Assembly: GCF_000024885.1 (NCBI RefSeq)
Contig: NC_013512.1
Span: 496,001 to 560,000 of the forward strand
Direction: 5' to 3'
DNA: 64,000 nucleotides
Origin: Sulfurospirillum deleyianum DSM 6946
GTDB taxonomy: Bacteria; Campylobacterota; Campylobacteria; Campylobacterales; Sulfurospirillaceae
Position 1 is the stretch's first letter; every line of letters begins with the position of its first letter. Positions 14,973 to 45,277 of this stretch are shown here, piece by piece. The translations under genes and the position numbers were made by a program. The notes beneath the pieces are model-generated. The model made no database searches. It saw only the letters and a program-made list of their open reading frames with translations, and was not told the DNA's origin.

Positions 14973-17900
14973 ATGGATCTTATTACAGGATTTAAAGACA
15001 ATTGCGGTTTTGGACTAATCGCAAACATAAAAAATATCCCAACCCATGAAAATGTTGAAGATGCAATTACGGCGTTAGAGCGTATGATGCACAGAGGTGC
15101 GATAGCCGCAGATGGTAAGAGTGGCGATGGAAGTGGTCTTCTTTTTTCAATGCCCACTGAGTTTATGAAAAACGAAGCAAAAAAATTGGGTGTGGACTTG
15201 CCAAAGCAGTTTGCGGTCGCAATGATTTTTTTGCAAAATGATGAACAAAAACAGATTTTTGAAGAGACCTGTGAGCAAAATGACTTGAAAGTCCTCTTGT
15301 ACCGTGATGTACCCGTCAAAACAAAAGCGCTTGGAAAATTAGCGCTGGATTCATTACCCCAAATTGTACAAGCCTTTGTAACCTCTTCTTCATTGGTTGC
15401 GACAAAACGCTTTGAAGCATTATTGTATTTAACCCGTAAAATGGTTGAAAAAAAGTTAGCACAGGCTTTTGATTTTTATATTGCTTCTTTTTCAAGTAAA
15501 GTGATTTCGTATAAAGGGTTGGTGATGCCAACCTACATTAAAACCTTTTTTCCCGATTTGAGCGATAAAGCGTTTAAAGCAACCTTTGCACTTTTTCATC
15601 AACGTTTTTCGACCAATACCCTTCCCAAATGGAAACTCGCACAACCGTTTCGCACTTTAGCGCATAACGGTGAGATTAACTCTATTTCAGCGAATCGTTT
15701 TTACACACAAGTGCGTAGCGAGTCTATAAAAAGTTCTGTTTTTACGCAAGAAGAGCTTCAACAACTCTATCCTTTAACCAACGCAGATGTCAGCGATAGC
15801 GCAAGTTTAGATAATATGTTTGAATTTATGTTGATTAATGGGTTTGATTTTTTCAAAGCCATTCGCTCTTTAATTCCTGTACCATGGCAAAATGCTCCTC
15901 ATATGGATGCAGAGCTTCGAGCATTTTATGAATACTCCAGTATCAATTTTGAGCCATGGGATGGTCCTGCTGCGATTTCTCTGACCGATGGACGTTACAT
16001 TGCCTGTGTATTGGATAGAAATGGTTTGCGTCCTGCCAAATATATCATTACCAAAGATGACCGCATTCTGATTTCAAGTGAATACGGTGTTTTAGATATT
16101 GAAGAGGATAACATCATTGAGCGTGGTCGTTTACAAAGTGGTCAAATGATAGGCTTAGACCTTAAATTTGGCAAAATCATGAAAGATGATGACATCAATG
16201 ACTACATTAAAAGCTCCAACACTTACACAGAATGGCTTAATAAAGGGCTTGTTTACCTGCAAGAGTTTGTAGATATCCCGTTTTCAAAAACAACGGATTA
16301 TGTACGTGAAAATTTAGAGATAGAACAGCGCTATTTTAACATCACGCAAGAAGTCAAAAATATGGTGCTTGAGCCGATGATGAAAGATGGCAAAGAGGGT
16401 GTTGGCTCTATGGGGGATGATACCCCAATGGCGGCATTTAGCCAAACACAGCGTAATTTTAGTGATTATTTTAAACAAAAATTTGCACAAGTCACCAATC
16501 CTCCGATTGACCCGATTCGTGAAAAAGTCGTTATGAGTTTAAATACCAACTTTGGCATCATTCGCAATATCCTAGAAGAGGGTGAAGAACACGCCCTTTG
16601 TATTAAAACCATTTCACCTCTTTTAATGCAAGAAAAATATGAAATTATTGATTCGTTTGGTGATGCCAGTAAACCTCGTTATAAAGAAGAGTATAAAAAT
16701 CGCTATTTCTCAACCCTTTTTGAAGACAACCTTAAAGGTAGTCTTGAAGATTTGGTGTATGACATCGTTCAAGCCGTCAAAGAAGAGGGTGTTCGCATCG
16801 TTTTCCTTGATGATAGAGGAATGAGTGAAAAACAAAAACCGATGCCGATGACTATGGTCATTGGTCGAGTGAATCAGGTTTTATTGGATGAGGGTGTGCG
16901 CTCGCTGGTCTCCATTGTTGCCATTAGCGGTGAAGCGTTGGATGCCCATTCGTGTGCCACTATGGTTGGGTTTGGCGCCAGTGCGATTTATCCCTATCTT
17001 TTATACGCAACCGTTTTGGATGAGTGCAAAAAGAGTGAGATGAGTGCATATGAGACGAAAACAAAACTTAAAAACGTCAGTCACGCTATCAATCAAGGCT
17101 TGCTCAAAATTATGTCGAAGATGGGTATTGCAACGATTGCTTCATATCGAAACTCAGCCTTATTTGATGTCTTAGGACTTTCTAGCGAGATTGTTAAAGA
17201 GTGTTTTAATGGTGCGATTTCAATGATTCCAGGGCTTGGATATAGCGATATTGAAGAGCGTCTTTCAAACAACCATGCAAAAGCGTATGATCTAAACATT
17301 AACAAAAAACTCTTTCCGCTTGAAATTGGTGGATTTTACAAATACATTGAGGGGCAAGAGTTTCACGACTATCATCCGCATATTGTCCATGCGATTCACA
17401 AAGCCGTTGTGACAGCGGAGAAAAAAGATTTTGCGGAATTTACCAAAATGGTGAATAACCGTGGCTTTAAAATGATTCGTGACTTTTTTGAACTCAAATC
17501 TGATCGTGAGCCTATCGCATTGGAGAAAGTAGAGAGTAAAGAGGCTATTTTTAAGCGTTTTGCTACAGCAGCGATGAGTTTAGGCTCTATCTCTCCCGAG
17601 GCGCATGAAGCGCTAGGTGAGGCGATGAATAAAATTGGGGGTATGAGTAACTCAGGCGAGGGTGGTGAAGCACCAGAGCGTCTTAAAACCCATAAAAACT
17701 CTAAAATTAAACAGATTGCATCGGGTCGTTTCGGCGTAACACCTGAGTATTTACGCTCCGCCACAGAGATTCAAATTAAAGTGGCACAAGGTGCAAAACC
17801 AGGTGAGGGTGGTCAGCTTCCAGGGCATAAGGTGACACCACTCATTGCCACTCTTCGTTATACCATTCCAGGTGTTACACTGATTTCTCCTCCGCCACAC

Positions 17901-38122: not shown

Positions 38123-38128
38123 AATTAA

Positions 38129-38273
38129 GAGTTCTTGCAAAACTCTTAACACGCCTTTAAAGCAAAGCTCTAAAGGCTACGTTAACATTGGGTTTTCTTC
38201 GACAGAAAGCCCACGCACCCTTGGTGCTTTTTCTTCTTGCAAAATGAGTTTTGCAAGAAGTCTTTTAAATTTT
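38129..38273 (+). repeat. Multi-hairpin repeat, copy A
   Basis: About 145 bp starting 7 bp after the permease stop. Hairpins in order: AAGAGTT/AACTCTT; GCCTTTA/TAAAGGC; GGGTTTTCT/AGAAAGCCC; GCACC-CTT-GGTGC followed by TTTTT; and CTTCTTGCAAAA/TTTTGCAAGAAG (12-bp stem). Copies B and C lie at 45 kb. Could be a structured RNA, a 3' stabiliser or a mobile palindromic element. Confidence 0.8.
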
Positions 38274-38289
38274 TATATGTAAAAACGCT

Positions 38290-42057: not shown

Positions 42058-43380
42058 TTGAAAGAAGAGGTCGTTATCAAAAAAAAGGACTGGAAAAGCT
42101 ATACGATTAAAAGTTTAGCATTTTGGGTTGTCTTTGCAATTATTGCGGGTATTGTGTTTGGTATGTATGATCCAAAGATGGCAATCGCTACAAAACCTGG
42201 TATTGATTGGTTTATTCAAGCATTAAAATGGTTGGTTGGACCGATTATTTTCTTAACCATCATTTCGGGTATCGTGGGGCTTGAAAGCCTTAAAGAGGTT
42301 GGAACGATTGGCTTTAAAGCGTTTATCTATTTTGAAGTGGTCAGTACATTTGCCTTAGCGATTGGTGTTTTATTTGGTAATTTGATGGGACCTGGAAATG
42401 GGATGAACCTTTCTGTTGAGTCTTTGGATGCAAGCAGTGTTTCAAAGTTTACCAACGTCAATCAAGATGTGGGTTCTGTTTGGTCAATTTTAAAAGGCGC
42501 CATTCCTCACGATCCGATTAGCCCTTTTATTAGTGGTAATACCCTTCAAGTCCTTACAATGGCCTTGACATTGGCTATCTTAATCTCCGCTTTTGGTGGA
42601 AAATATAAAGCAACCATTTTGAAACCTCTTGAGATTGCTCAAAACTTTTTCTTCAAAATCTTAACGGTTTTAATGTGGTTAAGCCCTATTGCTAGTTTTA
42701 GTGCGATGGCATTTTTGATTGGTAAATTTGGTATTGCTTCCTTGATTAATATGGCAAGTTTATTGGGCGTTATGTTTGTTTCTGTTCTCGCATTTGTTTT
42801 TGGTGTACTTGGTATCATCATGGCAATCTTCAAAATCAATATCTTTAAATTTATGCGTTTTATTGCCAAAGAAGTCTTGATTGTTTTTGCAACCTCTTCA
42901 AGCGAGTCAGCTCTTGCGCCATTGATGCGTCGTTTGGAAGCGGCGGGTGTGAGTCGTGGTACAACAGGCTTGGTTATTCCAACAGGGTATTCATTCAATC
43001 TTGACTGTACGAATATCTATCTTTCTCTTTCAATTATTTTTATTTCTCAGGCGTTTAACATTCCTTTAACACTCGCAGAAGAGTTGTCTATTATCTTTAT
43101 TTTAATGGTAACCTCAAAAGGTGCGGTAGGTGTCACAGGGTCTGGTTTTATTGTCCTTGCAGGAACTTTATCTGCTATGGGTGGATCGATTCCTGTGGTG
43201 ACAGTGGCTGTGCTTTTGGGTGTGGATAAATTTATGAGCGAGATGAGAGCCGTGGGTAACTTGTGTGGTAACGCAGTTGCCGCTGTTGTCGTTGGTGCAT
43301 GGGATAAGCAGATTGATATGGAAAAATTCAAATATGCCTTAGACCATCCAGAAAGCGTTGAAGATACCATCCCTGGTTAA
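42058..43380 (+). CDS. Dicarboxylate/amino acid:cation symporter, copy 1
   Basis: A 440-residue DAACS (GltP/DctA) transporter that would import C4-dicarboxylates, glutamate or aspartate with Na+ or H+. The start is TTG with AAAGGATAAG upstream. ATSSSESALAP, the serine-rich hairpin, begins near residue 279. The cation/substrate motif reads NLDCT where DctA and GltP have NLDGT/NMDGT. GVTGSGFIVLAGT is in the second hairpin. The next gene is a close paralogue with long identical nucleotide stretches. Confidence 0.93.
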   Translation: MKEEVVIKKKDWKSYTIKSLAFWVVFAIIAGIVFGMYDPKMAIATKPGIDWFIQALKWLVGPIIFLTIISGIVGLESLKEVGTIGFKAFIYFEVVSTFALAIGVLFGNLMGPGNGMNLSVESLDASSVSKFTNVNQDVGSVWSILKGAIPHDPISPFISGNTLQVLTMALTLAILISAFGGKYKATILKPLEIAQNFFFKILTVLMWLSPIASFSAMAFLIGKFGIASLINMASLLGVMFVSVLAFVFGVLGIIMAIFKINIFKFMRFIAKEVLIVFATSSSESALAPLMRRLEAAGVSRGTTGLVIPTGYSFNLDCTNIYLSLSIIFISQAFNIPLTLAEELSIIFILMVTSKGAVGVTGSGFIVLAGTLSAMGGSIPVVTVAVLLGVDKFMSEMRAVGNLCGNAVAAVVVGAWDKQIDMEKFKYALDHPESVEDTIPG

Positions 43381-43628: not shown

Positions 43629-44957
43629 GTGGAAACTGTGAGTGAAAACAAAGTAGCAAAAAGAAATTGGACGCACTATACGATTAAAAGTTTAGCGTTT
43701 TGGGTTGTGGTTGCGATTATTGCGGGGGTTGCTTTTGGTATCGTTGATCCTGCTTTGGCAATTAAGGCAAAGCCTGGTATTGATTGGTTTATTCAAGCAT
43801 TAAAATGGCTGGTAGGACCGATTATTTTCTTAACCATTATTTCGGGTATTGTGGGGCTTGAAAGCCTTAAAGAGGTTGGAAGTATTGGACTTAAAGCGTT
43901 TATCTATTTTGAAGTGGTCAGTACGTTTGCTCTAGCCATTGGTGTTTTATTTGGTAATTTAATGGGACCAGGTAGAGGAATGAATCTCTCCGTGGAGTCT
44001 TTGGATGCAAGCAGTGTGGAGAGTTTTACCCACAAAACGCAAGAAGCTGGTTCTGTCTGGTCTATCTTAAAAGGTGCGATTCCGCATGATCCTATCTCTC
44101 CTTTTATTCATGGCAATACGCTTCAGGTTTTAGTGATGGCATTGACCATCGCTGTTTTGATTGCGGCATTTGGAAATCAATACAAAGAGGCGATTTTAAA
44201 ACCTCTGGAAAAAGCACAAGAGTTCTTTTTTAAAATTTTAATGGTTGTGATGTGGCTCAGTCCTATTGCTTCATTTAGTGCGATGGCGTTTTTGATTGGA
44301 AAATTTGGTATTGCGTCTTTGGTAGGTATGGCAAGTCTCCTTGGCGTGATGTTTCTCTCCGTTGTTGCGTTTTTATTTGGGGTGTTGGGTATTATCTTAT
44401 GGTTTTATAAAATCAACGTTTTTAAATTTATGCGTTTTATTGCCAAAGAAGTCTTGATTGTCTTTGCAACCTCTTCAAGCGAGTCAGCTCTTGCGCCATT
44501 GATGAGACGTTTGGAAGCGGCAGGTGTGAGTCGTGGTACAACAGGACTTGTTATTCCAACAGGGTATTCGTTCAATCTTGACTGTACCAATATTTACCTT
44601 TCTCTTTCCATTATCTTTTTGGCTCAAGCATTCAATATTCCTTTAACACTTTCACACGAACTTTCGATTATTTTTATTTTGATGGTTGCTTCAAAAGGTG
44701 CGGTGGGTGTCACAGGGTCTGGATTTATCGTTCTAGCGGGTACATTATCTGCGATGGGGGATGTTATTCCTGTGGTAACGGTGGCTGTACTTTTGGGCGT
44801 GGATAAATTTATGAGTGAAATGCGAGCCGTGGGTAACTTGTGTGGTAACGCCGTTGCTGCTGTTGTTGTTGGTGCATGGGATAAGCAGATTGATATGGAT
44901 AAATTTCGATATGCGTTAGACCATCCAGAGAGCATTGAAGATGGTATTCCTGGATAA
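43629..44957 (+). CDS. Dicarboxylate/amino acid:cation symporter, copy 2
   Basis: A 442-residue paralogue of the preceding gene, differing mainly in the first 30 residues, around residues 130-200 and in the segment with ILWFYKINVFKF. It has a GTG start with AAAGG 9 bp upstream. It shares the NLDCT variant motif with copy 1. The 248-bp gap holds copy 1's terminator and no obvious -35/-10 pair. Separate leader and terminator suggest separate control of the two copies. Confidence 0.93.
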   Translation: METVSENKVAKRNWTHYTIKSLAFWVVVAIIAGVAFGIVDPALAIKAKPGIDWFIQALKWLVGPIIFLTIISGIVGLESLKEVGSIGLKAFIYFEVVSTFALAIGVLFGNLMGPGRGMNLSVESLDASSVESFTHKTQEAGSVWSILKGAIPHDPISPFIHGNTLQVLVMALTIAVLIAAFGNQYKEAILKPLEKAQEFFFKILMVVMWLSPIASFSAMAFLIGKFGIASLVGMASLLGVMFLSVVAFLFGVLGIILWFYKINVFKFMRFIAKEVLIVFATSSSESALAPLMRRLEAAGVSRGTTGLVIPTGYSFNLDCTNIYLSLSIIFLAQAFNIPLTLSHELSIIFILMVASKGAVGVTGSGFIVLAGTLSAMGDVIPVVTVAVLLGVDKFMSEMRAVGNLCGNAVAAVVVGAWDKQIDMDKFRYALDHPESIEDGIPG

Positions 44958-44970
44958 GTAAAAGGAGAAG

Positions 44971-45120
44971 CTAATAAGAACTTCTCTTATTAGAATTCTT
45001 AACACGCCTTTAAAGCAAAGCTCTAAAGGCTACGTTAACACTGGGTTTTCTTAGGCAGAAAGCCCACGCACCCTTGGTGCTTTTTTTCTTACGAAATGAA
45101 TTTTGTAAGAAGTCTATTAG
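44971..45120 (+). repeat. Multi-hairpin repeat, copy B
   Basis: About 150 bp beginning with CTAATAAGA/TCTTATTAG (9-bp stem), then the same series as copy A. The last stem is CTTAC...GTAAG. Copy A has CTTGC...GCAAG there, a compensatory change. It lies right after symporter copy 2 and abuts copy C. Confidence 0.8.
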
Positions 45121-45277
45121 CGTTCTTATAGAATTCTTAACACGCCTTTAAAGCAAAGCTCAAAACGCAGTTTCTGTGAAAAGGCTACGTTAACACTGGG
45201 TTTTCTTAGGCAGAAAGCCCACGCACCCTTGGTGCTTTTTCTTCTTACAAAATGAATTTGGTAAGAAGTCTATTAGG
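45121..45277 (+). repeat. Multi-hairpin repeat, copy C
   Basis: About 155 bp in tandem with copy B. The GCCTTT/AAAGGC loop carries an extra stretch of nearly 20 bp that itself can pair (CGCAG-TTT-CTGTG). Copies B and C together fill most of the 375-bp gap between the symporter and the HDOD gene. Confidence 0.8.

Follow-up and report, generated by a model that had tools for sequence, protein, structure and literature searches.

Correia, Nezha and QMITE are MITEs that are tied to insertion sequence (IS) elements through common ends (PMC10969869, PMC3049150). In Streptococcus pneumoniae, the copies of BOX are co-transcribed with neighbouring genes and SPRITE is terminator-like; BOX, RUP and SPRITE have been reported chiefly from the pneumococcus and its close relatives (PMC3049150). 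The repeat analysed here resembles Correia, Nezha and QMITE: it is short, no coding capacity was seen in it, it folds strongly, and it has numerous intergenic copies, terminal inverted repeats, a short A/T-rich target duplication and ends in common with an insertion sequence. Unlike them, its inside is not an IS remnant: it is a structured module, which other families of the order possess in a form lacking the ends and whose covariation is strand-specific. With BOX, RUP and SPRITE it shares the character of a dispersed structured repeat, whereas its sequence and fold differ from theirs and its core is shared by several families of a single order.

The repeat was found in Sulfurospirillum deleyianum, a sulfur-reducing bacterium with a single chromosome of 2,306,351 bp, of which positions 496001-560000 form the 64,000-nucleotide window analysed here (coordinates below are those of the window unless the genome is named). 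Our preferred reading, which we consider probable, has two nested layers, in which an IS5-linked MITE encloses a strand-specific, putatively RNA core.

The Sulfurospirillum MITE and its putatively IS5-type relatives

An earlier note on this DNA had described a three-copy repeat, with copy A at 38129-38273 and copies B and C at 44971-45277. The existence of the three copies and their common hairpins were borne out, whereas the borders had to be corrected on the basis of the target duplications. Copy A is a complete MITE of 136 bp (38128-38263). Its left terminal inverted repeat, AGAGTTCTTGCAAAACTC (38128-38145, + strand), begins a self-complementary end hairpin, and the right one, AGACTTCTTGCAAAACTC (38246-38263, - strand), matches at 17 of 18 positions the end AGACATCTTGCAAAACTC of a 916-bp IS. 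Between them lie the structured core (38150-38213, - strand), made of hairpin P2 (38153-38177, preceded by GTA(G) on the - strand) and hairpin P3 (38189-38213, - strand, with a five-base loop that is GCYGA in the family), and hairpin P4 (38215-38227, + strand). A right-end hairpin spans 38233-38260 (+ strand). Copy B (44992-45115, 124 bp) is 12 nt short at the left end and sits inside the 3' arm of the terminator of the upstream transporter gene (TCTTATT|AG), in which its left ATT target duplication (44989-44991) also falls. A single ATT (45116-45118) is common to B and to copy C (45119-45271, 153 bp), which is followed by another ATT (45272-45274); this arrangement is expected if the duplication of one copy served as the insertion site of the other. 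The loop insertion of copy C that had been pointed out earlier is 17 nt long, hairpin-capable in itself, placed in the P2 loop (approximately 45162-45178) and present again in other copies of the family. The order-wide covariance model R1 recognises all three cores on the - strand, with 84.3 bits (E 1.1e-19) for A, 89.3 bits (E 5.9e-21) for B (45003-45066) and 54.8 bits (E 3.2e-12) for C (45164-45221).

Other features of the window were observed alongside. Two adjacent paralogous transporter genes (42058-43380 and 43629-44957) have a 300-nt stretch in common at 86% identity. A palindrome, TTTACATGTAAA, possibly a regulator site, recurs between genes (e.g. near 38289, 46147, 47025 and 58433) and also occurs near several element copies across the genus.

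The genome-wide search proposed earlier proved productive: a whole-genome DNA search gave about 27 copies, on both strands (27 places at E ≤ 1e-4, the lowest 2.5e-55), and R1 finds 35. The earlier note had let its proposal depend on further copies and further covariation, and both are present, the covariation being strong. Element copies occur in 24 of 24 Sulfurospirillum genomes. The element is about 136 bp long, with 18-bp terminal inverted repeats and no transposase gene; the family consensus starts with AGAGTTCTTGCAGAACTC and ends with its inverted repeat, GAGTTTTGCAAGAAGTCT. An exact 3-bp A/T target duplication, mostly ATT or AAT, flanks 76 of the 122 distinct full-length copies obtained in the genus, as compared to a mean of 31 and a maximum of 45 when left and right flanks were shuffled in 1000 trials. 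The places of insertion are usually intergenic. The site of copy A is empty in three relatives, in which the permease gene runs directly into an A/T-rich spacer. B and C are missing from relatives, where a terminator or another palindrome stands instead; at three orthologous sites (L082, L083 and L084) this is a 28-bp palindrome, AGAGTTCTTGCAAAACGGCAAGAACTCT, which looks like a solo MITE end hairpin. That the Sulfurospirillum repeat is a non-autonomous MITE, a layer of a known kind, we regard as secure. Its terminal inverted repeats, 3-bp duplications, empty site and putative IS5-family donor had escaped the original reading as an RNA or hairpin DNA.

The ends of the MITE and its 3-bp duplication equal those of the 916-bp IS with a putative IS5-type transposase, whereas the MITE has no transposase gene and its inner 100 bp or so are unrelated to that IS. 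The 916-bp IS is found in five sister species, with ends AGACATCTTGCAAAACTCA and duplications AAT, ATT, ACT or AGT; it has two overlapping frames and a DDE_Tnp_4 match above cut-off, and its right 23 bp, CAAATGAGTTTTGCAAGATGTCT, are those of the right end of copy A but for two positions. A related 907-bp IS in genome G005, with ends AGACTTCTTTCATAACCC and an AAT duplication, encodes two proteins that matched HTH_Tnp_4 and DDE_Tnp_4 above cut-off in a Pfam/NCBIfam scan. The IS5 family is the closest to it: the best NCBIfam match is transpos_IS5_4, which stays under its cut-off, as a gene divided between two frames would be expected to do. In the S. deleyianum genome no DDE_Tnp_4 gene with MITE-type ends was found, while five sister species contain such an IS; the MITEs of this genome therefore look orphaned, and their link to the IS stands on common ends and duplication length. 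From these two features we infer that the transposase of the 916-bp IS may move the MITE in trans. A second MITE-like family, of about 164 bp, was also seen at genome positions 16049-16214, 443986-444149, 1250952-1251115, 1688387-1688550 and 2245591-2245754 (L145-L149); its 3-bp duplications are AAT, ACT and AGT, and its ends, AGACTTCTTTCATAACCC, match those of the 907-bp, putatively IS5-type element of G005.

The structured core, its strand and its distribution

Copy A folds with a z of -8.6. Pairing of one element end with the other showed no more covariation than shuffles, so that the conserved part is not the long stem that was predicted to join the two ends of copy A. The hairpins behave differently. 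Over 45 hairpin pairs, 146 double-change cells were counted as compared to 47 after shuffling, and pairing fell from 91% to 44-54% when partners were shifted by one column. The compensatory change noticed earlier in the last stem of the window copies (TTGC/GCAA to TTAC/GTAA), which in copy A lies in the right-end hairpin, recurs in the family at column pair 151/167, as G-C 60 times, A-U four times and G-U four times. A 22-sequence alignment of the - strand had 95.9% of cells paired, with 66 double changes against 16 after shuffling and a score of 0.519 against 0.204. The R1 alignment (A4; 84 matches, 77 distinct sequences, several families) gave 386 double-change cells against 118 in shuffles and a covariation of 0.682 against 0.258, with no more than 49% paired after sliding; since it was fitted to R1, it leans towards this model.

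The earlier note had read the fold on the + strand. On that strand, the mismatches in the stems are chiefly A with C, which correspond to U with G on the opposite strand: in P2, within the genus only, 29 A-C and 5 G-T mismatches were counted. When the - strand is read, P2 has 91 G-U vs. 7 A-C mismatches and outer P3 30 vs. 9, and this bias points to the - strand as the structured one. Inner P3 does not favour the - strand, because it has a C.A contact in 71 of 77 sequences, plus a variable neighbour, which would read T.G if the opposite strand were taken; this contact may be a conserved internal loop. The occurrence of G-U mismatches almost solely on the - strand suggests that the folding of the core is strand-specific and probably takes place at the RNA level. 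G-T pairs form in single-stranded DNA too, and the strand-specific wobble, taken by itself, would fit both an RNA and a single-stranded DNA hairpin. In neither region of the window did the - strand show a promoter-like site. The earlier proposal of an RNA or a hairpin DNA substrate was a good guess and is partly supported; it missed the MITE, the opposite strand and the inner core, to which conservation across the order is limited.

Outside the genus, the matches of the DNA search fall mostly in the middle of the element, at query positions of about 26-107, and most of these loci contain the core without the MITE ends, i.e. a variable P2, the linker, P3 with its conserved loop, and a variable P4 often followed by T. 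The core is about 64 nt long and consists of hairpins P3 and P2 and a conserved linker, G-Y-GTTA-R-C-GTA, which appears as CTACGTTAACACT or in its CTACGCTAACGCT form. P2 stems can differ completely among loci of one genome with pairing kept. Two copies from outside the genus (L354 and L370) keep a left-end hairpin resembling that of the MITE. No excess of inverted repeats over shuffled pairs was found in the flanks of the core outside Sulfurospirillum; the pair ATTAAGTTAA/TTAACTTAAT, considered as a terminal repeat of the bare core, is present in some G179 copies and is not general.

When R1 was run over 397 Campylobacterota genomes, with at most 13 candidates scored per genome, 80 genomes in several families of the order gave matches, with a patchy distribution. 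Fuller scoring of seven genomes counted 78 cores in G179, 35 in S. deleyianum, 33 in G301, then 21, 13 and 10, and 6 in G145. Tandem units of 86-104 bp exist, and other copies are dispersed. In G179, a 1.8-Mb genome that is 85% complete, many of the 78 copies are near-identical and some are in tandem (L482-L509). One unannotated core lies on a named plasmid of Sulfurovum mangrovi, the sole plasmid match, and the core occurs on two viral contigs; the phages searched gave no match. With the Rfam 15 covariance models, tRNA genes were the sole matches, and for one copy of the core nothing appeared even with E values up to 5. Searches of open-licence papers yielded no account of the element. As a pattern, the strand-specific conserved core is secure; that it acts as RNA is likely.

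Gene context and alternative explanations

The earlier note had remarked that the three window copies follow transporter genes. This link is due to chance: the neighbours of other copies are diverse (TonB, GGDEF, tRNA pseudouridine synthase, Ppx/GppA and cytochrome genes, among others) and transporters are just some of them. In the genus, orientation with respect to the neighbouring genes is random: 36 copies are ++, 33 --, 27 +- and 23 -+ (n = 119). Outside the genus, where neighbour genes are likewise diverse, the core is more often sense to both neighbours (49 ++ vs. 21 --), an excess in which many copies come from three genomes and are not independent, and which is absent within the genus. 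Orientation with respect to replication, judged by eye from copy positions, showed no consistent pattern.

The suggestion that a segment of the repeat could terminate transcription agrees with what we see in P4: in 3 of 3 window copies GCACCCTTGGTGC is followed by TTTTT on the + strand, and P4 with this T-run looks like an intrinsic terminator on that strand. The T-run is common within the genus. If the repeats were dispersed terminators of upstream genes and nothing more, these features would be accounted for; we consider this very improbable, because orientation to genes is random, with 23 of 119 genus copies between divergent genes, because P2, P3 and the linker are unnecessary for termination, so that P4 alone is explained, and because G179 copies have no clear T-run. 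A similarly low probability is given to the hairpins being kept solely by quasi-palindrome correction through template switching at the DNA level, with the structure read by no RNA or protein. Direct swaps from U-A to C-G with few intermediates, which occur at some pairs, are what this process would leave. It acts alike on both strands, and neither the 91 G-U vs. 7 A-C mismatches of P2 nor the invariance of loops and linkers across families is predicted by it; the strand-specific wobble in particular counts against plain palindrome correction.

Among the alternatives, the strongest lead comes from the GTAG that adjoins P2, as in the REP/BIME sequences with their RAYT (TnpA_REP) enzymes. The core would then be a REP-like single-stranded DNA hairpin moved by a RAYT-type Y1 tyrosine transposase, whose binding to the hairpins in single-stranded form would be the reason for their conservation. 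In almost all copies GTAG lies directly 5' of P2, a short imperfect hairpin, on the - strand; pairing is strand-specific, copies are both dispersed and in tandem clusters, and Y1_Tnp genes are present in every sampled Sulfurospirillum genome. However, the check for a REP-type or IS200-like transposase gave a negative answer: the core is found at 0 of 21 Y1_Tnp loci, most of these genes carry flanking repeats of their own (GGGTCAGG/CCTGACCC type), and no Y1_Tnp match was obtained in the complete genome G301 (33 copies) or in G179 (78 copies, 85% complete). Moreover, P3 and the linker, which a REP does not need, are conserved as much as P2. We therefore hold this explanation to be quite unlikely. 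Beside gyrA, several species of Sulfurospirillum have one RAYT-like Y1_Tnp gene, which is about 252 aa in length and is flanked by the inverted repeats GGGTCAGGGC and GCCCTGACCC (L404 at genome 310039-310365, with its orthologues).

It is also possible, and in our judgement unlikely, that the core serves the host as a regulatory RNA, such as a riboswitch-like leader or a small RNA, for which the MITE is merely one route of spreading. Variable, covarying stems with invariant loops are a riboswitch-like pattern, some genomes have sense copies just 5' of start codons (e.g. before dnaK), and the ++ excess outside the genus points the same way. Against this, the neighbour genes are diverse, the near-identical copies dispersed in one genome resemble recent spread and not a regulon, and the orientation preference is absent in Sulfurospirillum.

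A structured core as putative cargo

Under the nested reading of a MITE enclosing a putative RNA core, the core would be folded within transcripts that cross it in the - direction, would work as RNA and would show its invariant loops to some factor, and an ancestor of the Sulfurospirillum MITE would have taken up one copy of it between IS5-type ends. Since the core occurs without mobile ends in many related bacteria, it seems that a mobile element acquired a structured RNA. More tentatively, with a confidence that falls somewhat short of even, we propose a mobile-cargo RNA family of the Campylobacterales, which would spread in bare or tandem form, would have been captured by IS5-type ends in Sulfurospirillum, and would be under selection for its fold while the carriers change.

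MITEs are usually regarded as IS shells with nothing inside. In the present case the shell belongs to one genus, whereas the content is common to families of the order and is constrained to a single strand-specific fold. Should the core be RNA, it would represent an unclassified structured RNA of sulfur-cycling Campylobacterota, among them a published type strain, with as many as 78 copies in one genome.
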